A stretch of 41,283 bases of DNA. It comes from Actinomycetes bacterium. Lineage in GTDB: Bacteria > Actinomycetota > Acidimicrobiia > Acidimicrobiales > Ilumatobacteraceae. The DNA lies in NCBI GenBank assembly GCA_027491335.1, contig JAIXWJ010000045.1:1-41283 (forward strand), read 5' to 3'. The notes below the pieces were generated by a model, which saw only the letters and a list, made by a program, of their open reading frames with translations, was not told where the DNA came from and did no database searches. A program made the translations under genes and the position numbers. Below, piece by piece: positions 836-9,465 of this stretch; the first letter of the stretch is position 1; each line of letters opens with the position of its first letter.

Positions 836-2806
836 GTGAGTCACGACGGCCCCGATCACGCACATCGTGTTCGCGAGCGCCTGCGCGGACTCGACGGCTT
901 GCGGGCCCTGGCCGTGATCGGCGTGCTGGCCTTTCACGACGATCGACTGTCGGGCGGATTCCTCGGGGTCGATCTCTTCTTCGCGTTGTCCGGTTTCCTG
1001 ATCACCACGTTGCTCGTCGAGGAACTCACCACCACCGACCGAGTCGACCTGATTGGGTTTTGGGGACGACGCCTTCGACGTTTGCTGCCCGCGGTGATGG
1101 TCCTGCTGGTCGCGGTCGTGCTCTTCCTGCGATTCTTCGCCGACCCGGGGCAGTGGATCGTCGCTCGCCAGGACGCACCGTGGGCCCAGTTCTACGCCGC
1201 CAACTGGCACCAGATCGCCACCGGCGATGGGTACTGGGATGCCTTCGCCGAACCGTCGGCGTTCGAGCATCTCTGGAGCCTGGCCATCGAGGAACAGTTC
1301 TACGTGGTGTGGCCCGCCGTCATGTGGGCGGCCTGGCGCTGGAGACGCACCACGGCGATCGCGACGATCACGATCGGGGGGTTCGTCGCTTCCGCCGTGG
1401 CGATGATCGTTCTCTTCGACGGTGGCGACCCGACTCGCGTGTACATGGGGACCGACACCCGCGTGTTCTCTCTGTTGGCCGGAGCGATCGTGGCGCTTCC
1501 CGCCGTTCGCGACAAGGTCTCTCGCCTGGTGGCCCGGGCGCGACGTTCCACCGAGGTGGTCATCACCTTTTTGCTCGTGATCTTGTTGGGTTCGTGGTTC
1601 GTGGTCGACGGTTCCGACGACTGGCTGTTTCGCGGTGGTCTCGTCGTTCACTCGGCCGTTGCCGCGATCGTGGCTCTCGCGATACCGACCATCGACGGAC
1701 GACTTGCCGCACTTCTCTCGGTTCGTCCTCTGGAGTACGTCGGGCGCCTCTCGTACGCGTTGTACCTCTGGCACTGGCCGATCTTCGTCTACTGCACTCC
1801 CGACCGAATCGGCACCGACGGCTGGCGCCTCACCGTCGTGCGCCTGATTTCGACTCTCGCGTTCTCGATGGTGTCGTACCACTTCGTGGAGCAGACCGTC
1901 CGTCATCGTGCCCGCTGGGCTCACGGTGGCGCCGGGCGTCGAGCGTTCGTGTTGTCGATGACGGGCGCCGTGGTCGTGTGGTTGGTGGTGGCGGTGCCAT
2001 CCAGCACCAACGCGGTGGATGACGACGCGATCACCGGCGCCATCACCGACACGAGCACCGACACGAGCACCGACACGAGCGTGACCACGACGACCGTCGA
2101 CATTTCCGCAACCTCCACCACCCCCACCACGATTCCCCTCGGACCGCCCGTGAGCAGCATCTACTACCTCGGCGACTCCGTGGCCTACGACATGTGGCCC
2201 GCGATCGAGTCCGGGCTCGCGGCGAGTGGGCTGCGCGTCGAATCCGGTGCCTTCGGCGGCGTCGGCCTGATCCCCCAGGGCTCGGGGCCCACGCCGTTGG
2301 AGACGTTGCGCGGCACGTTGGACCGCGTGCGGCCCGACCTGCTGATCCTGCAACTCTCGGTGTGGGACGCACAGCAGTCGACGGACGATCAACGTGACGC
2401 ACTCGAGCAGTTGCGACTACTCGCGGTCGAACGGAGCCAACGGATTCTGATTCTGTCGTTCCCCACCTTCGCCCCCGATCGGACGGAGCCGGGGCAAGCG
2501 AGCCTGGAGACCCTCGCCATCGCCATGGCCGACACTTCTCCGGAGTTGATCGGCTACGCCGATCAGACGTCGGCTTTGGGAGAAGTCTTCGACGTCGACA
2601 TCGACGACGATGGCAATCCCGAGCGCAAGCGCGACGGAATCCACGTGTGTCCCACCGGCGCGCTCCGAAGCGCGCAATGGCTGATGCAGTTCCTCGCCGA
2701 TCACTTTGCCGGGATCACTCCGCCCACCTCGAACGACTGGATTCTCGGCCCCTGGTCGGCCGACCCGCGTTACGACAGTCCCCCGGGCGCCTGCGCCCGT
2801 GTATGA
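836..2806 (+). CDS. Acyltransferase 3 family membrane protein with C-terminal SGNH domain (OafA/YrhL type)
   Basis: A 656-aa integral membrane O-acyltransferase that would transfer acetyl or another acyl group to a cell-surface polysaccharide. The N-terminal AT3 domain (about residues 15-385) opens with RLRGLDGLRALAVIGVLAFH, which contains the family's R-x10-H motif (R23, H34), followed by about ten hydrophobic segments. A Thr/Asp-rich linker (about 395-435) leads to an SGNH-hydrolase-like domain with GDS (446-448) and a C-terminal DGIH (D600, H603), the usual Ser/Asp/His set. This fusion is well known in bacterial O-acetyltransferases. The start is GTG 836, chosen because a TACGAT -10 sits 6 nt upstream. 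An epimerase gene follows 30 bp downstream, which fits surface-glycan metabolism, but the glycan is unknown. Confidence 0.9.
   Translation: MSHDGPDHAHRVRERLRGLDGLRALAVIGVLAFHDDRLSGGFLGVDLFFALSGFLITTLLVEELTTTDRVDLIGFWGRRLRRLLPAVMVLLVAVVLFLRFFADPGQWIVARQDAPWAQFYAANWHQIATGDGYWDAFAEPSAFEHLWSLAIEEQFYVVWPAVMWAAWRWRRTTAIATITIGGFVASAVAMIVLFDGGDPTRVYMGTDTRVFSLLAGAIVALPAVRDKVSRLVARARRSTEVVITFLLVILLGSWFVVDGSDDWLFRGGLVVHSAVAAIVALAIPTIDGRLAALLSVRPLEYVGRLSYALYLWHWPIFVYCTPDRIGTDGWRLTVVRLISTLAFSMVSYHFVEQTVRHRARWAHGGAGRRAFVLSMTGAVVVWLVVAVPSSTNAVDDDAITGAITDTSTDTSTDTSVTTTTVDISATSTTPTTIPLGPPVSSIYYLGDSVAYDMWPAIESGLAASGLRVESGAFGGVGLIPQGSGPTPLETLRGTLDRVRPDLLILQLSVWDAQQSTDDQRDALEQLRLLAVERSQRILILSFPTFAPDRTEPGQASLETLAIAMADTSPELIGYADQTSALGEVFDVDIDDDGNPERKRDGIHVCPTGALRSAQWLMQFLADHFAGITPPTSNDWILGPWSADPRYDSPPGACARV
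2048..2083 (+). repeat. 12-bp tandem repeat in the acyltransferase linker
   Basis: The unit GACACGAGCACC occurs twice exactly and a third time with changes at its end. It encodes repeated DTST and lies in the Thr-rich linker between the membrane and SGNH domains. Copy number here could vary between strains without breaking the frame. Confidence 0.85.
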
Positions 2807-2836
2807 GCATTCAGGTGAACAGGCAAAGATGACATC

Positions 2837-3817
2837 ATGCTGACCGACAAAAAGATTCTCGTCACCGGTCCCGCGGGACAGATCGCCTTCCCGTTGGTGG
2901 AGTTTCTGGCGCCGCACAACGACGTGTGGGGCGTGGCCCGTTTCTCCGACGCCGAAGCTCGCCGACGAGTCGAAGACTTGGGCGTCGTCACCCGATCGCT
3001 CGACTTGTCGCGACCCGACTTCACGGATCTTCCGGACGACTTCGATTACGTGATCCACCTGGCGGCGTTCAAGACCGAGGGTCTCGACTACGACCATGCG
3101 CTCACGGTCAACGCCGAGGGAACCGGCCTCTTGCTTCGTCATTGTCGCAATGCCAAAGCCGCCCTCATCATGTCGACGCAGTCCGTCTACAAGCCGGTGG
3201 CCGATCCGCTGCACGCCTTCCGCGAGACCGATCCGTTGGGCGACGTCAACTACATCATGTCCCCCACCTACTCCATCTCGAAGATCGCCGAGGAAGCGGT
3301 GGCGCGTTTCTGTTCCCGCGCCTACGACCTACCGGTGACCATCGCGCGCATGAACGCTTCGTACGGAACCAATGGCGGCTTGCCCACGTATCACCTCGAT
3401 TGGGTGATCGCCGGGCAACCGGTGGTGACGCGCTGGGACCCGTGCCACTACAGCCTCATTCATCAGGACGACATCAATGGACAACTGGAGGCGATGCTCG
3501 ACGCCGCCAGCACTCCCGCCACTATCGTGAACTGGGCCGGCGATGAAACGCCGTCGGTTCAGGAGTGGTGCGCCTACATGGGCGAGATTTCCGGTTGCGT
3601 ACCGGACGTGCGGTCGATTCCCATTGATGGCACCACGCGTGGCTCCATCGCCGACGTGAGCAAGCGTCTGTCGATCACGGGGCCGTGCACCGTGTCATGG
3701 CGCGACGGTCTACGACGAGTGTTCGAGGAACGACATGGTGGACGGATCGGCACAGGACCAAGCGGCCAGTCCGCCAAGCTGCTGGGTGAAGTGTCGAAGT
3801 TGAACGCCGAGAAATGA
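2837..3817 (+). CDS. NAD-dependent epimerase/dehydratase (extended SDR)
   Basis: A 326-aa extended short-chain dehydrogenase/reductase, probably acting on a nucleotide sugar or a related hydroxy substrate. The N-terminal Rossmann fold has the dinucleotide motif VTGPAGQIA (about residues 9-17), then the typical VIHLAA segment (about 74-79), a catalytic-region serine (MSTQSVY, about 113-119) and the YxxxK pair in YSISK (about 145-149). The length fits the family. The C-terminal part, which sets substrate choice, is not diagnostic to me. The gene follows the acyltransferase on the same strand with a 30-bp gap, so they may share a transcript. A nine-codon open frame (MSIQVNRQR) overlaps the acyltransferase stop and ends just before this start; I do not count it as a gene. 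Confidence 0.85.
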   Translation: MLTDKKILVTGPAGQIAFPLVEFLAPHNDVWGVARFSDAEARRRVEDLGVVTRSLDLSRPDFTDLPDDFDYVIHLAAFKTEGLDYDHALTVNAEGTGLLLRHCRNAKAALIMSTQSVYKPVADPLHAFRETDPLGDVNYIMSPTYSISKIAEEAVARFCSRAYDLPVTIARMNASYGTNGGLPTYHLDWVIAGQPVVTRWDPCHYSLIHQDDINGQLEAMLDAASTPATIVNWAGDETPSVQEWCAYMGEISGCVPDVRSIPIDGTTRGSIADVSKRLSITGPCTVSWRDGLRRVFEERHGGRIGTGPSGQSAKLLGEVSKLNAEK

Positions 3818-3841
3818 GTCTCGAGAAGTAGCCGTCGGCAC

Positions 3842-3859
3842 GAACACCGGCTCGGGTTC
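3842..3859 (+). terminator. Possible weak hairpin terminator after the epimerase
   Basis: GAACACCG and CGGGTTC can pair with one bulged A around a GCT loop, followed by the T-rich TTCT. The hairpin lies 24 bp after the epimerase stop and just before the leaderless promoter of the next gene. The T run is short, so termination is uncertain. Confidence 0.3.
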
Positions 3860-3862
3860 TTC

Positions 3863-3868
3863 TAAGGT
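3863..3868 (+). promoter_or_regulatory. -10 element of the DUF4287 gene (leaderless)
   Basis: TAAGGT lies 6 nt before ATG 3875 and there is no Shine-Dalgarno sequence between them. I see no convincing -35 box. Confidence 0.45.
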
Positions 3869-3874
3869 TCTCGC

Positions 3875-4423
3875 ATGACTTCCACCGGCGAACGCGCCGA
3901 TCAGTTCCCGGCCATCGAGAAGAAGCACGGAAAGCCGATGAGTCATTGGTTCTCGATGCTGAAGAAGCTCGGTGACGCCAAGTACGCCGACCAAATGGCG
4001 CTTCTGCAGGAACAAGGCTTCAGTCGGGCCCACGCCAACACCGTGGTGATGCACCATCGCGGAAGCGCGTCATCGCGGCGCCATGATTCCGTCGACGATC
4101 TGCTGGACTCGTTGCCCGCCGAACATGCCGATCTGATGCGGCGCATATTCGCCACGATCATGAAGAAGAACCCGCGGCTGGAGCTGGTGGTGGCGTGGAA
4201 TCAGCCGATGCTGAAACTGGGCAAGGAATACGTCATCGGGGTGTCGGCGTCGAAGAAGCACCTCACCATCGGCCCTTGGGGCGACGAACCCATCGAGGTG
4301 TTCGCCTCGGAACTGGCCGGCTACGAATCGAACAAGAAGACCTTCAAGGTTCCCCTCGACTGGAAGATCGATGCCGCGTTGCTGAATGGTCTCGTTCGGT
4401 ATCGCCTGGACGAGATCACGTGA
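3875..4423 (+). CDS. DUF4287 domain protein with DUF1801/DUF5655-like C-terminal domain
   Basis: A 182-aa cytoplasmic protein. The N-terminal 65 residues fit the DUF4287 pattern of short helices (AIEKKHGKPMSHWFSML, then FSRAHANTVVMHHRG). The C-terminal half resembles the YdhG-like DUF1801/DUF5655 fold: WNQPMLKLGKEYVIGVSASK, then KHLTIGPWG, and a basic helical end (FKVPLDWKIDAALLNGL). YdhG-like proteins have been described as frataxin-like iron chaperones, but I see no specific iron-binding residues and do not carry that role over. The domain order is a known combination of uncharacterised proteins. The gene stands alone, with its own -10 element 6 nt before the ATG. Confidence 0.75.
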   Translation: MTSTGERADQFPAIEKKHGKPMSHWFSMLKKLGDAKYADQMALLQEQGFSRAHANTVVMHHRGSASSRRHDSVDDLLDSLPAEHADLMRRIFATIMKKNPRLELVVAWNQPMLKLGKEYVIGVSASKKHLTIGPWGDEPIEVFASELAGYESNKKTFKVPLDWKIDAALLNGLVRYRLDEIT

Positions 4424-4478
4424 TACGAATTCACGTGAGACGAGATTCTCCGACATGACGTTTCGATCGTCGCGAACG

Positions 4479-4484
4479 TAGCGT
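4479..4484 (+). promoter_or_regulatory. -10 element of the FMN reductase operon
   Basis: TAGCGT lies 7 nt before ATG 4492, so the FMN reductase-membrane protein-SRPBCC transcript is probably leaderless. Confidence 0.45.
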
Positions 4485-4491
4485 TCGGACG

Positions 4492-5040
4492 ATGAAGACC
4501 CTCCTCGCGTTCAACGGCTCGACCAGAGCCGACTCCTTCCACGGACGGATCATTAGGGTGTTGCCCTCGTTGGCTCCCGACGACGTGCGTATCGCCGAGT
4601 TCGATCTGAGCGACGTGCCCTTCTACAACCAGGATCTGGAGGGTGACCGGCAACCGGCGGCGGTGATGGCCATGCGCGCCGCGGTCGCCGAAGCCGACGG
4701 CATCATCTTCGCCGCCCCCGAGTACAACTACTCGTATTCCGCGCTCACCAAGAACACCATCGATTGGCTGACCCGCCCCATGGGTGCCGGTGCGTTGCGG
4801 GGCAAGAAGGTCATGGTGTTCAGCGTGACGCCCGGCCCCGGAGCGGGACGCAAGGTGACGGCGACCATCTCGGAGATCCTGCCCTTTCTGGGCAACGAGG
4901 TGGTCGCGGTGGTGAACGCGGCAACCATCCACGAGAAGATCGCCGCGAACAACGACACGAACAACGACACGAACATTGACGTCATCGTCGACGAGGAACT
5001 CTCCACCGCACTTCGCGCCGGATTGGCGGCCTTCTCATGA
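4492..5040 (+). CDS. NADPH-dependent FMN reductase family protein
   Basis: A 182-aa flavodoxin-fold NAD(P)H:FMN or quinone reductase of the SsuE/ChrR/YieF group, cytoplasmic. The phosphate-binding loop is FNGSTRADSFHGRII (about residues 8-22), and the flavin-contacting PEYNYS motif (about 79-84) is clear, followed by LTKNTIDWLTRP. Length matches the family. The C-terminal part contains a small in-frame duplication (NNDT twice, encoded by two direct copies of AACAACGACACG near 4949-4972) in a surface region before the last helix. The stop overlaps the next start as ATGA, so it is translationally coupled to the membrane protein gene. The electron acceptor in the cell is not predictable from sequence. 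Confidence 0.87.
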   Translation: MKTLLAFNGSTRADSFHGRIIRVLPSLAPDDVRIAEFDLSDVPFYNQDLEGDRQPAAVMAMRAAVAEADGIIFAAPEYNYSYSALTKNTIDWLTRPMGAGALRGKKVMVFSVTPGPGAGRKVTATISEILPFLGNEVVAVVNAATIHEKIAANNDTNNDTNIDVIVDEELSTALRAGLAAFS

Positions 5041-5525
5041 GGCCCGTTCCCGAGTCGTGGATTCGTCCCCTCGTGATCGCACACGTTGCGGCCACGCTGT
5101 TCATGGTCGGACTCATCTGGACCATCCACGTGGTGCACTATCCGCTCTTCGCCGACGTGGGCGCATCCAGTTACGTCGACTACCAGGCGGCCCACGTGGA
5201 ACGCATCGGAATCGTTCTGGCCTTCCCGTGGTTGCTGGAGGGTTTGACGTTGCTGGGCGTGTTGGCAATGGCCGTCGAGCGACGCGATCTACGGATCCCG
5301 GCCCTGATCGGAGCGATCGCGATGGCCACGGTGTTGGTGATCAGCGGATTGTGGTCGGCGCCCGCGCATGGTGAACTCGCCGACGGCTTCGATGCCGCGG
5401 TCCACGATCGACTGATGACCGCGAATCTGGTGCGAACGTTGGCCTGGACCGTGTGCGGTGCCAGCGCCCTGTGGGTGATGGCTCGCGTGTGGGTTCGCGG
5501 AACAGAATCGCATCATCGTGCGTGA
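5037..5525 (+). CDS. Small integral membrane protein, about four TM helices
   Basis: 162 aa with four hydrophobic segments at roughly residues 10-30, 58-80, 85-105 and 130-150. Between TM1 and TM2 lies a short loop (HYPLFADVGASSYVDYQAAH) and before TM4 a polar stretch (HDRLMTANLVRTLAW) with conserved-looking His, Asp and Asn. I have seen this architecture in uncharacterised bacterial membrane proteins, possibly distant from DUF1772/anthrone-oxygenase-like proteins, but cannot assign a role. It overlaps the FMN reductase stop by 4 nt (ATGA) and the next gene by 8 nt, so the three genes form one coupled operon. A redox or lipid-related job beside the reductase is speculation. Confidence 0.75.
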   Translation: MRPVPESWIRPLVIAHVAATLFMVGLIWTIHVVHYPLFADVGASSYVDYQAAHVERIGIVLAFPWLLEGLTLLGVLAMAVERRDLRIPALIGAIAMATVLVISGLWSAPAHGELADGFDAAVHDRLMTANLVRTLAWTVCGASALWVMARVWVRGTESHHRA

Positions 5526-6066
5526 GAACTGCGTTGCCACGGCCGAGGAGAAGTCGGCGCCCGTGGTGGGCGACCACCTCTGCACCAATCCCCACGTGGT
5601 GGCGACACGTTGCATCACCATCGATGCGGCTCCCGACGCGGTGTTCCCGTGGATTCGCCAGATGGGGTTCGGTCGGGCGGGCTGGTACAGCCACGACTGG
5701 ATCGACAACCTTGGTCGTCGCAGTGCCGACCGACTTCATGACGAATGGCAGGACGTCGAAACCGGGTCCAAGGTTCCCGGTGGTCCGATCGATTTCACCG
5801 CCGCCATCGTCGAGGCACCTCGGGCGTTCGTTCTGCAGATGGGCGAAGACTCTCAGCGGTTGAACTTCACCCTCGCCTACGAGTTGCGCGAGATCGAAGC
5901 GGACGGGCACACGAAAACACGCCTCGTCACCCGGATGCGGGCGCGGGTTCCCGGTGGTCGGGTGCTCGGTGGAGCCGTGGCCCGTGGCTTACTCGGCCCC
6001 GGCGACGGTGTGATGGTGCGCAAGCAACTGCGGACTCTGGCTGATCGTGTCGGGCGGGGCGAGTAG
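5518..6066 (+). CDS. SRPBCC (START-like) family protein
   Basis: A 182-aa helix-grip protein of the SRPBCC superfamily, which binds hydrophobic ligands. The classic opening after the first strand is ITIDAAPDAVFPWIRQMG (about residues 34-51), followed by GWYSHDWIDNLG and a mid-domain GSKVPGGPIDF; the C-terminal helix is VARGLLGPGDGVMVRKQL. Many such proteins are annotated only as hypothetical or polyketide-cyclase-like. The GTG start at 5518 overlaps the previous gene by 8 nt, in line with coupling. The 3' end runs tail-to-tail into the HNH gene on the other strand with a 78-bp overlap. Ligand unknown. Confidence 0.82.
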   Translation: MRENCVATAEEKSAPVVGDHLCTNPHVVATRCITIDAAPDAVFPWIRQMGFGRAGWYSHDWIDNLGRRSADRLHDEWQDVETGSKVPGGPIDFTAAIVEAPRAFVLQMGEDSQRLNFTLAYELREIEADGHTKTRLVTRMRARVPGGRVLGGAVARGLLGPGDGVMVRKQLRTLADRVGRGE

Positions 6067-7239
6067 AAGGTCGATGTCGATCCCGCCTTCGTGGATCACT
6101 CGATGGTGCGCATGACACAACGGGACGAGATTTCGCAGATCGGTGGCTCCTCCGTTTTCCCAGTGTTCGCGATGATGAATATGACATCGGTCGAATCCGA
6201 CGTCGCAATGGGGAACGGCACACGACTGATGAATTGCTTCGAGAGCTCGCCGCTGATGTGCCGTCGCCAGGCGCTTCGCACGCCCCACGTCGAGGGGAAC
6301 GCTGGGTCCGTCGAGGACCACCGGGATGATTGCCGCGTCGCACGCGAGCCGGCGGACGGTCTCCACCGGAACGTCGGCTCCTCCACTGGTGCGGCACACA
6401 CTGTCGGCGTGCAAACCGTGACGGAGAGTGTCGAGATCGATGTGCACGATCACCTCGGCCCGAACCATGCCGGTGGTGTGTACCCCGTCGGCCCCGGACA
6501 GCAGTTCCACCAGGGCCCGCGCCTGCCGGTGCTCGTTGGGCTCGACCCACGGCATCACATCGAGCCCAATCTCTTTGTCTCCGGAATGAAACATCGCTTC
6601 GACGACGTGACCGAGGGTGTTGGCGATGACCGCTGCACTGATGGGATCGAACTTTCCGCGGACGTGCAAGCAGCCTTCCTCGTCGGTTCGCAGGGAAAGA
6701 AACGTTTCGCGCTGCTGACGCTCGAACTTCGACAGTCCATCATCGACGACGACCGATTTCGCGGTCTTCCTGACGAGTTGGCCGAAGTCGGTGGCATTCA
6801 TCGTGGTCGATGCTTCGATCAGTTCGGGGAGGTGTTCGAGGAATGCCTCGCGTTGGTCGCCGACGATTCGCAGACCGCGCCCCAACGCGTCGACATGCGC
6901 CGATGTGGTGGAACCTTCGGCGAGAACTTCGGCGATTCCCGGAGCGACTTCGGAAATCAGGCCTCGGGAAACGACGTCGCGAGCCTGCCGCGGAGTGAGG
7001 CCACCATGCGTCACCAGTTCGCGTTCGGGGATGACGATCACCGGTGCGACCGGATCATCGAGCAATGACAGCATGCGCGCGTTCAAGGCCAATGTTTCGG
7101 CATCGAGTCGAGCCTGAATGGCCCGAATCTCCACCAAGCGTTCGCGAATCTGCTCGATGGACATCATGCCGACCGACGTCGAATCGATCGGAGCCACATC
7201 GACGCGAGATGGTCCAGAGTGTTCGTCGATTCGCTTCAC
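5989..7239 (-). CDS. DUF222 / HNH endonuclease domain protein (13E12-repeat type)
   Basis: 416 aa. An N-terminal DUF222 region (about 25-320) of helices (IEQIRERLVEIRAIQARLDA, GLTPRQARDVVSRGL) is followed by an HNH nuclease domain near the C terminus: C-x4-C in CAVPHC, then RCHIHHREHWENGG and LVPLCHAHH, the metal and catalytic histidines of the family. These proteins are abundant and multicopy in actinobacteria and are presumed DNA nucleases; their biology is poorly known. The start is GTG 7239, supported by a TACGTT -10 element 6 nt upstream. The last 26 codons overlap the convergent SRPBCC gene by 78 bp. A second member lies at 18935-20305, but the two differ widely in sequence and in predicted control (no LexA box here). 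Confidence 0.9.
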   Translation of the reverse strand: MKRIDEHSGPSRVDVAPIDSTSVGMMSIEQIRERLVEIRAIQARLDAETLALNARMLSLLDDPVAPVIVIPERELVTHGGLTPRQARDVVSRGLISEVAPGIAEVLAEGSTTSAHVDALGRGLRIVGDQREAFLEHLPELIEASTTMNATDFGQLVRKTAKSVVVDDGLSKFERQQRETFLSLRTDEEGCLHVRGKFDPISAAVIANTLGHVVEAMFHSGDKEIGLDVMPWVEPNEHRQARALVELLSGADGVHTTGMVRAEVIVHIDLDTLRHGLHADSVCRTSGGADVPVETVRRLACDAAIIPVVLDGPSVPLDVGRAKRLATAHQRRALEAIHQSCAVPHCDVGFDRCHIHHREHWENGGATDLRNLVPLCHAHHRVIHEGGIDIDLLLAPPDTISQSPQLLAHHHTVAGAE

Positions 7240-7287: not shown

Positions 7288-8277
7288 TCAGCCGTGATGC
7301 TTGAACACGTCGGCACCGACAGCCGTGCCGGCTCGAACACTGGCCATGTTGTGCAACACCGCTCCGGTGCCCTCGGCGAGTCGGGTCATCATCTCGAAGT
7401 TCGCCACGATCGCCGCCGCGTCGACCATCGCATCGACACCCATCATCTCGGTCAGACGCTGGCGCGCGACTTCCAGTGCAGTCCGATCACCCGCGGGCGA
7501 AGTGGCCGCCAAGGCGAACTCCAGCAACGCGTCGGCATGATCGACATCGACCTTCATCGAGGCCAGATCCACCGCGATCCCGTGTGCTTTGCCGCTCCAA
7601 CTGAGCATGCCTGCGTGCGAAGACGTTCAATAATGACATTCGCGACTGAACGACACCCGGGTGGCCAGCAGTTCCATATCAACGCGCGACAGAGTTCCGC
7701 GCGTCCACTTCGGGTCCACCATTTCGGCGTCGGGGATGTACTGAGCGTCGGCCAAACTCCAGAGCTCGTCGAAGGTGCCGGGGACCGCGGTGAGAGCCTG
7801 AACGACGGCGGCGGTCTTGTCGGCCGGCGCGGCCACGGGCACCCAGTTCCACTTCGCGTCGGCCAACTCCGGTGACGGAATCCGCGACGGGCCTCGTTCG
7901 TCGTCGGTCGACAACTCTCGATCGGGAAGACCCAACGTGCGGCGCAACGAGGACGCTGCCGCCGCAACCGCGACCAGGCCGACCAGTTCGACGTACGGCA
8001 ATGCCCCGATTCGGTCGCGCACGTCCTCGTACCACTCACGGGTCACATGGGGTCGACCGCTCCCCAAGCGAGCGGCGGCGCGCAGGGCGGCCTCCGGAGC
8101 ACCCGAGAGTGCCGGCGAGGGCTCGCTAACCGCCGACCACATCGCGGAGATCGCGGCCTTCGCCAACGCGCGACGTTCCGATGCCGACCACCACGTTCCG
8201 GCCGACGAGATGGCCACCCAGGTGCGCTCGTGAGCCTCGGCGAGGTCGGGTCGCAGGGTCGCGGTCACGGTCTCCAC
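7288..8277 (-). CDS. Probable selenocysteine-containing AhpD-like (carboxymuconolactone decarboxylase-fold) protein
   Basis: Two frames usually called as separate genes (8277-7627 and 7608-7288) lie in the same phase and are split only by one TGA at 7629-7627. Read through, they give 329 aa with residue 217 at the TGA. The context is E213-C214-H-Y-[TGA]-T-S-S-H221, matching the AhpD active site E-C-x-x-C-x-x-x-H with Sec in place of the second Cys. The flanks are also family-like (MELLATRVS before; AGMLSWSGKAHGIAVDL after). The N-terminal half (about 1-150) looks like a second, degenerate copy of the fold without the motif. AhpD-fold enzymes use the CxxC pair to reduce peroxides; this one would be a thiol/selenol peroxidase or related oxidoreductase. 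A -10-like TACCGT suggests GTG 8268 as an alternative start. A point nonsense mutation or sequencing error is the main alternative. No Sec machinery is in this window. Confidence 0.75.
7593..7607 (-). promoter_or_regulatory. Candidate bacterial SECIS hairpin downstream of the TGA
   Basis: On the minus strand UGCUC-AGUUG-GAGCG forms a 5-bp stem (four Watson-Crick pairs plus one U-G) with a 5-nt loop. The loop begins 24 nt after the in-frame TGA and has G at its second position, within the loose rules for bacterial SECIS elements (short stem, G near the start of the loop, about 16-37 nt after UGA). Stems this short arise by chance, so the support is modest. Confidence 0.4.
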
Positions 8278-8320: not shown

Positions 8321-8740
8321 TCAGATCACCAAGCCGCCGGCGCGCCACGCATCCATGGCCGCGGCCGCCGACTGCCGCCTCACCAAGAAGTAGTCGGTGT
8401 CGTAGGTCGACACCGCGAAGACACTGATCGCCGCCTCGGCGAGAAGAGTCGAACATCTGCTGAGAATTCCCGTTAGGGCGAAGTCGAGAGTGCTCACGAT
8501 TCCGAACGCTGTCCAAGGGCCCTCCAACGATGTGAACTCGGGGTGAGCGTTCACGGCGGAAACGATCGAAATCTCGGACGCGGTCCGCGAGATGGTCCAG
8601 AAGTCCGGAGACCTTCGACCCACCTCCTCGATCAAGGTCGGAGACAGTGATTCGACCTTGGCGACCCAGTAGTCGCCGGCGAGCTCGTGCAGTTCGATCG
8701 CTGCTGACTCATGTTCGGGCACGATGATTCCCACCTTCAC
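8321..8740 (-). CDS. ACT domain-containing protein (COG3603-like)
   Basis: 139 aa from GTG 8740, preceded by GGAG at 5-6 nt; the frame is open further upstream but the extension looks like non-coding sequence. It resembles the small tandem-ACT proteins of the COG3603/CASTOR-like group: an N-terminal part (ELAGDYWVAKVES), a middle segment (SIVSAVNAHPEFTSLEGPWT) and a C-terminal half with the family's hydrophobic pattern (LTGILSRCSTLLAEAAISVF, then STYDTDYFLVR). ACT domains bind amino acids and act as sensors; the ligand here is not predictable. The downstream AhpD-like gene starts 43 bp away on the same strand and may be partly co-transcribed. Confidence 0.8.
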   Translation of the reverse strand: MKVGIIVPEHESAAIELHELAGDYWVAKVESLSPTLIEEVGRRSPDFWTISRTASEISIVSAVNAHPEFTSLEGPWTAFGIVSTLDFALTGILSRCSTLLAEAAISVFAVSTYDTDYFLVRRQSAAAAMDAWRAGGLVI

Positions 8741-8812
8741 ACTCCGGCGTCGACCCGCCCACGTGATCGTCGAATGTACCCGAGAGCGGACGATGCAAGG
8801 GCGTCCTCTCGA

Positions 8813-8818
8813 TAGCGT
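8813..8818 (+). promoter_or_regulatory. -10 element of the DJ-1/PfpI gene
   Basis: TAGCGT lies 8 nt before ATG 8827, slightly longer than at the other leaderless starts. Confidence 0.38.
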
Positions 8819-8826
8819 TCGAACGC

Positions 8827-9465
8827 ATGCCCACCGTTGGTTTGGTCCTCTATCCACGATTCACGGCTTTGGACATTGTCGGCCCGTTCCAAACGTTGGT
8901 CGACGTCCCCGGACTTGACGTGTTCTTCGTGGCCGCACAGAAAGGTCCGGTGGTCGACCACACGGGCAAGTTGATTCTCGAGGCGACCAGATCGTTCGAC
9001 GAGATCGATGCGCTCGATGTGCTGGTCGTCCCCGGTGGGTTCGCCGACCGAGACATCGACGACACGAATGATGTGGTCGCATTCATCCGCCGGATTCATC
9101 CCACCACCACATGGACGACGAGTGTTTGCACCGGTTCCATCTTCTTGGCCCATGCGGGAGTTCTGGATGGAATCACCGCGACGACGCACTGGGCTTCCTA
9201 CGAACGGCTACGGAGCCTCGGTGCGGTACCCACCGAGCAGCGTGTGGTTCGATCGGGCAAGATCATCACGGCCGCCGGGGTTTCTTCAGGCATCGACATG
9301 GGCCTCGTTCTGGTCGCGGCTCTCGAGAGCGAGGACATGGCCAAATTGATCCAACTCGCGATCGAGTACGACCCGCAGCCACCGTTCGATTCGGGTTCTC
9401 CATCGAAGGTCAGTCCCGAGTTCAAACAATTCGCTCTGAGCATCTTCGACGATCCCGGTCGGTGA
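8827..9465 (+). CDS. DJ-1/PfpI family protein (isonitrile hydratase-like)
   Basis: A 212-aa cytoplasmic class I glutamine-amidotransferase-like protein. It starts VGLVLYPRFTALDIVGPFQT, the usual first strand and helix with the conserved acidic residue (D17), then VLVVPGG (about 63-69) and the nucleophile elbow SVCTGSIFLAHAGVLDG with Cys101. The segment ATTHW after the elbow matches the isonitrile hydratase/transcriptional-regulator branch rather than deglycase DJ-1. There is no AraC HTH domain. Substrate uncertain: isonitrile hydratase is the closest named activity, but many members are unassigned. It is divergent from the ACT-domain gene with an 86-bp gap. Confidence 0.88.
   Translation: MPTVGLVLYPRFTALDIVGPFQTLVDVPGLDVFFVAAQKGPVVDHTGKLILEATRSFDEIDALDVLVVPGGFADRDIDDTNDVVAFIRRIHPTTTWTTSVCTGSIFLAHAGVLDGITATTHWASYERLRSLGAVPTEQRVVRSGKIITAAGVSSGIDMGLVLVAALESEDMAKLIQLAIEYDPQPPFDSGSPSKVSPEFKQFALSIFDDPGR

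Follow-up and report, generated by a model that had tools for sequence, protein, structure and literature searches.

The closest described relative of the protein considered here is hypothetical protein 1 from the Sargasso Sea selenoproteome, whose 2005 description drew on four sequences (PMC1088965) and which a 2026 review lists, under NF041238, as "AhpD-related protein (hypothetical protein 1, Sargasso Sea metagenome)" with the motif CxxU (PMC13188914). The protein family is thus already known, and NCBIfam names it AhpD_rel_CFYUT, an "alkylhydroperoxidase-related (seleno)protein". The GOS survey reports AhpD-like 1 and AhpD-like 2 selenoproteins under COG2128 and pfam02627 (PMC2398784).

We have analysed a stretch of 41,283 nucleotides (the window) that constitutes contig JAIXWJ010000045.1 of an actinobacterial assembly (GCA_027491335.1; Ilumatobacteraceae), in which one minus-strand gene very probably encodes a further protein of this kind. 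Like hypothetical protein 1, the window protein carries CxxU and matches NF041238 above the cut-off, over residues 9-312; the motif in the family name is CFYUT, whereas CHYUT stands in the window protein and in the two relatives nearest to it. It resembles the GOS proteins in being of the AhpD/CMD type with CxxU, but those proteins are filed under other families, whereas the family of the window protein is covered by a model of its own and possesses an additional N-terminal half. The chains 2pfx, 6k40, 3c1l, 2oyo and 2prr, all AhpD- or peroxidase-related and matched by the family profile, are 188-197 residues long and lack this extra half, and 2pfx has CFYC where the window protein has CxxU. 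The features of the locus are as follows.

7288..8277, minus strand: read-through CDS of a predicted AhpD-related selenoprotein, 329 aa (NF041238, 226.9 bits)
8277-8275, minus strand: GTG assumed as the CDS start (presumed; alternative in-frame GTG at 8268-8266)
7627..7629, minus strand: in-frame TGA, predicted Sec217, second position of the CxxU motif (TGA in 39/39 distinct TGA-bearing loci, TGC in one Cys homologue)
7636..7638, minus strand: Cys214 codon, first position of CxxU (invariant in a 40-row alignment)
7672..7674, minus strand: Glu202 codon (invariant in the same alignment)
7615..7617, minus strand: His221 codon (invariant in the same alignment)
7594..7606, minus strand: predicted bacterial SECIS hairpin GCTC-AGTTG-GAGC (loop from 24 nt past the TGA; G and T at loop positions 2-3)
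7888..8277, minus strand: N-terminal half (residues 1-130), lacking CxxC and probably a degenerate AhpD-fold half (profile matches over residues 53-119; Foldseek and hhalign matches weak)
5989-7239, minus strand: downstream neighbour, DUF222/HNH protein
8321-8857, minus strand: upstream neighbour, ACT_7 domain

The minus-strand frame from 8277 to 7288 holds a single internal stop, the TGA at 7629-7627, ahead of the terminal TGA at 7290-7288. A first-pass annotation had described two frames, 8277-7627 and 7608-7288, in the same phase and parted by one TGA; this arrangement was confirmed on the minus strand, save that 7608 merely marks the first ATG after the TGA and the open frame runs from 7626. 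The residues around the codon read S-F-S-R-E-C-H-Y-[TGA]-T-S-S-H-A-G, exactly the E-C-H-Y-[TGA]-T-S-S-H context that had been noted, with catalytic-type spacing (E-x11-C-H-Y-[TGA]-T-S-S-H) in the 329-residue protein. Taken alone, the open frame after the TGA is weak evidence, because a frame of 112 codons would stay open by chance with a probability of about 0.04 at the base composition of this G+C-rich window. The frame nevertheless stands above chance, since both halves match NF041238 in register and the TGA column is constant in 39/39 aligned loci.

The read-through protein scored 226.9 bits against NF041238 (cut-off 175), and the same gene reached 216.1 bits in a genome-wide search with the model. 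The two halves alone scored 132.6 and 60.2 bits, both below the cut-off; the upstream piece (residues 9-216) corresponds to model positions 2-238 and the 106-residue downstream piece to 246-339. Among 14 control genomes NF041238 had matches in five and none above the cut-off. The earlier description of an AhpD-like gene therefore holds as to relatedness and needs narrowing as to family, which is the longer NF041238 and not generic AhpD. The further assertion that standard annotation would miss the protein was too strong, because NCBIfam has a model for this (seleno)protein, though halves annotated separately fall below its cut-off. Relative to CFYUT, the window protein keeps C, Y, U and T and replaces F by H; F occupies this place in 36/39 distinct loci. 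Pfam CMD matched the window protein at 22.3 and 22.7 bits, just below the gathering score of 23, and the window gene was absent from the listed matches of a PF02627 search of its genome; 39/40 aligned family members matched CMD at E 0.01 or better. On the sequence evidence gathered here, we put the probability that the gene encodes a selenoprotein of NF041238, with the TGA decoded as selenocysteine, at about 0.94.

A protein search at E 0.001 or better found matches in 68/296 genomes of the class, including weak ones to shorter AhpD-like genes, and 44/296 genomes had NF041238 above the cut-off. By hand count, 46 of the 47 listed over-cut-off gene copies in these 44 genomes hold one internal TGA. 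Loci for alignment were the best-scoring matches and not a random sample: of 67 examined, L085 was without a match, the matches of four others (L081-L084) contained no TGA, and 62 had a TGA, reduced to 39 distinct loci by the 80 residues around the codon. The TGA falls at one alignment column in 39/39 of these, and the 39 proteins form 29 clusters at 60% identity. The sole TGA-free over-cut-off copy among those listed (L081, G247:C4:31800-33500; 193 bits against NF041238) reads CFYC and has TGC at this very column, so that the alignment with a Cys homologue contains 39 TGA and one TGC. Its genome (G247) has selA and a best tRNA-Sec match of 44.5 bits, under the cut-off; a short AhpD-like match bearing a TGA also occurs there. 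The two nearest relatives, L049 (Actinomycetota) and L050 (Ilumatobacteraceae, class Acidimicrobiia), come from metagenome assemblies, are about 74% identical and keep ECHYU. A pattern scan of genome contigs gave two loci among 26 pattern matches, and a phylum-level search at E 1e-40 returned 4/396 genomes, including the window's own, all of the same class. Among the class-wide family matches, many short AhpD-like frames (about 185-230 aa), some of them in genomes of no more than about 1 Mb (family f29), also carry one in-frame TGA.

Downstream of the TGA lies a putative SECIS element. The pattern GCTC-N-G-[GT]-NN-GAG[CT] occurs exactly 20 nt 3' of the TGA in 39/39 distinct loci. In 38,367 nt of family genes it has 39 occurrences and follows 0/12,243 non-TGA codons (12,282 codons tested); its presence is a circular observation, because the motif was derived from the same 39 sequences, but its exclusiveness is not. 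The constraint extends to codon choice: CTC, which makes up 47% of all Leu codons in the same genes, encodes Leu+8 in 39/39, and AGC, 24% of the Ser codons, encodes Ser+11 in 38/39, whereas at other Leu or Ser columns conserved to at least 80% the commonest codon reaches 59% at most. Kinship accounts for little of this fixation, given the 29 clusters at 60% identity.

Published rules for bacterial SECIS elements, as given in section 5 of the review, call for a loop of 3-9 nt, an upper stem of 4-16 bp, G within the first two loop bases, a UGA-to-loop distance of 16-37 nt and a minimum free energy at or below -7.5 (PMC13188914). These rules were applied to folds in place of a dedicated SECIS program. 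The window hairpin has a 5-nt loop (AGTTG) with G second, a 4-bp stem plus a U-G pair and a spacing of 24 nt, and folds at -8.5 (40 nt) and -9.5 kcal/mol (45 nt), all within that section's limits; with 36 nt folded a different structure is preferred. The energy of the 42 nt after the window TGA is not below that of synonymous shuffles (79% of 2000 were as low or lower). Across the family, the minimum-energy fold of 42 nt is the 4-bp, 5-nt-loop hairpin in 23/39 loci and a 5-bp, 3-nt-loop form in 2 more, the others differing, and no covariation can be counted because the stem hardly varies. The Cys homologue L081 lacks the hairpin at the corresponding place and folds otherwise. Between 7000 and 8600, an Rfam scan allowing E up to 10 turned up four matches, all of them sub-threshold and not one a SECIS. 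A scan of the window's own genome for this same hairpin spaced 16-24 nt from a TGA found five places, against two in a backwards control; the four besides that in the window were judged to be chance because the frame is short on one side of their TGA.

Selenocysteine insertion also demands a decoding apparatus, and selA, selB, selC and selD, the requirement for a bacterial selenoprotein, are all present in the genome containing the window (2.52 Mb in 76 contigs, 94.57% complete, 0.19% contaminated). Its tRNA-Sec scored 67 bits (gathering 47; ARAGORN anticodon TCA), selB 289.2 (cut-off 242.25), selA 395.2 (cut-off 267.9) and selD 322.4 (cut-off 125), and selB adjoins selA on one contig. Machinery was counted at over-cut-off matches alone, because sub-cut-off matches to tRNA-Sec, selB and selD occur in 14/14 control genomes; above the cut-off these controls had tRNA-Sec in 5, selB in 2 and selD in 2, while selA had matches in 4 and exceeded its cut-off in 1. 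Absence of selB and tRNA-Sec, named beforehand as grounds for rejecting selenocysteine, was thus not encountered. Class-wide, a selA match (E 0.001 or better) was found in 43/44 family genomes against 170/252 others (Fisher p 5.4e-6, kinship ignored), and the lone family genome without one (G234) has a tRNA-Sec of 68.4 bits. Two genomes of the same genus, G279 and G071, possess selA and tRNA-Sec and have no NF041238 copy above the cut-off (no match in G279, a weak one at E 5e-4 in G071); the gene is therefore dispensable in the genus.

Of course, a lone stop in an intact frame is also what a recent nonsense mutation yields, in which case the TGA would terminate translation and the downstream part would be decaying, and the same-genus genomes without an over-cut-off copy could be read in that light. 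Such a pseudogene is very improbable in view of the TGA shared by 39/39 distinct TGA-bearing loci from 29 clusters at 60% identity. The degraded downstream part that it predicts for relatives was also not observed: pN/pS relative to L049 is 0.300 upstream (213 codons) and 0.309 downstream (112 codons), and purifying selection, judged from these ratios, is alike on either side of the TGA. The assembly comprises 76 contigs, the window being one of them, and a sequencing or assembly error for TGC or TGT might be suspected, but the presence of TGA at this site in L049, L050 and many other genomes makes an error extremely improbable. TGA is reassigned in some bacteria, and the codon might conceivably be read as Trp or Cys through a variant code or near-cognate read-through. 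Yet TGA is the terminal stop of both this gene and the one upstream of it (8857-8321), the genome encodes tRNA-Sec, selA, selB and selD, and the hairpin goes with the TGA, the TGC homologue having none at the corresponding position, all of which leaves very little room for a reassigned codon. The proposal that this TGA encodes selenocysteine is instead supported by its conservation, by the SECIS-like hairpin at a fixed distance and by the machinery in the genome.

A second, shorter gene of the same genome, outside the window (L093, C9:49662-49910), matched Pfam CMD at 28.2 bits (cut-off 23) and holds one in-frame TGA within N-Q-C-V-V-[TGA]-M-N-T-R. It is followed by a hairpin, GCCGCATC-GGC-GATGCGGC, with an 8-bp stem and a GGC loop beginning 20 nt after the TGA. 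None of the NCBIfam models listed for the piece scanned reached its cut-off. Because NF053654 gave 73.3 bits against a cut-off of 310, L093 perhaps represents a selenoprotein subgroup without its own model, and its sequence independently suggests an organism that reads TGA as selenocysteine. As regards gene neighbourhood, inspection by eye at L049 and L050 revealed no conservation, the DUF222/HNH and ACT_7 genes not lying beside the relatives' gene; in L050 a 1129-residue glycine-rich repeat frame of the GGNGG type (2363-5752, minus strand) adjoins it.

Our comparisons place the predicted selenocysteine in an AhpD-type active site. The family profile matched 2pfx, 6k40, 3c1l, 2oyo and 2prr at E-values from 1.4e-14 to 1.7e-11, the widest match covering residues 159-303 and the best, 2pfx at E 1.4e-14, residues 159-302. 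An AlphaFold2 model of the whole protein, with Cys for Sec, had a mean pLDDT of 93.1, and its top Foldseek matches were AhpD-type chains, none of which reached E 0.001 (best 0.026). Throughout the 40 aligned rows, E202, C214, position 217 and H221 are invariant, giving the set E-x11-C-x2-C/U-x3-H. The spacing is that of the catalytic set of M. tuberculosis AhpD (Glu118, Cys130, Cys133 and His137), in which the second Cys, whose position Sec would occupy here, is the attacking residue.

The N-terminal half matched 2oyo (E 8.4e-4) and 6k40 (1.3e-3) by profile, both AhpD-like and spanning residues 53-119; the remaining profile matches, at E 0.13 or more, include unrelated proteins. Its model (pLDDT 89.9) gave AhpD/CMD-type chains as the top eight Foldseek matches, each at E 1.2 or more, and hhalign of the N against the C half gave a probability of 6.5 and E 0.0056 with 114 columns in register, too weak to stand alone. 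From the profile matches and the Foldseek top eight, this half is likely to be a second, inactive AhpD fold. Sestrin2 has two AhpD-like halves in one chain; its structure (5dj4) ranked 21st in Foldseek (TMq 0.43, E 1.3), a match that is not significant.

On this basis a mechanism can be outlined. SelB bound to the hairpin would deliver Sec-tRNA at the UGA, and translation would run on to 7288. By analogy with its fold family, the enzyme may act as a thiol or selenol peroxidase or a disulfide reductase, in which Sec217 would attack the substrate, Glu202 and His221 would handle proton transfer, and Cys214 would resolve the intermediate to a selenenylsulfide that is then reduced by a cellular thiol system. 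The N-terminal half, probably an inactive AhpD fold, would pack on the active half much as the partner subunit does in an AhpD dimer.

We rate the chances of a peroxidase role, a reading drawn from the fold family, as roughly even. Another possibility is that this selenoprotein of NF041238 is no peroxidase and serves as a reductive dehalogenase or other thiol-exchange enzyme, since the AhpD-fold debrominase Bmp8 (6ohi, 6ohj) appears at Foldseek ranks 8, 9 and 12 and again among the sub-threshold profile matches of the N-terminal half. However, every AhpD-type Foldseek match is weak, with E-values from 0.026 upwards, and both 2prr and 6k40 rank above Bmp8. The named neighbours (DUF222/HNH, ACT_7, DJ-1/PfpI and Polyketide_cyc2) show no link to halogen chemistry, and by eye they are unlike those beside L049 and L050; a role of this other kind is accordingly unlikely. 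Returning to the AhpD-related selenoprotein as a whole, it is tempting to speculate that it forms a one-chain pseudo-dimer of two AhpD folds in which the C-terminal half alone is active, with Sec, and in which a near-invariant SECIS (GCUC-NGKNN-GAGC, exactly 20 nt after the UGA) dictates codons, and hence residues, near the active site; the substrate might extend beyond peroxides, for example to halogenated compounds. We offer this composite picture tentatively.

Taken together, our sequence comparisons indicate that the gene is a well-supported further member of a described family, with the slightly different motif CHYU. What is contributed here is the spread of the family within a single actinobacterial class, the rigidity of the hairpin and the CHYU variant, together with the suggestive resemblance of the N-terminal half to an inactive AhpD fold. 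Searches of open-licence full texts found nothing on selenoproteins with carboxymuconolactone decarboxylase in actinobacteria, on selenoprotein or selenocysteine with Acidimicrobi, or on selenoprotein with alkylhydroperoxidase-related.

The locus thereby brings whole-genome support for UGA as selenocysteine in this actinobacterial lineage, and it locates the metagenomic "hypothetical protein 1" in 44 of the 296 genomes sampled from the class, with the Sec form prevailing almost without exception in that sample. The invariant hairpin lends itself to a clean test of how SECIS elements are recognized in actinobacteria, and a family that is nearly Sec-only invites direct comparison of the Sec and Cys forms.
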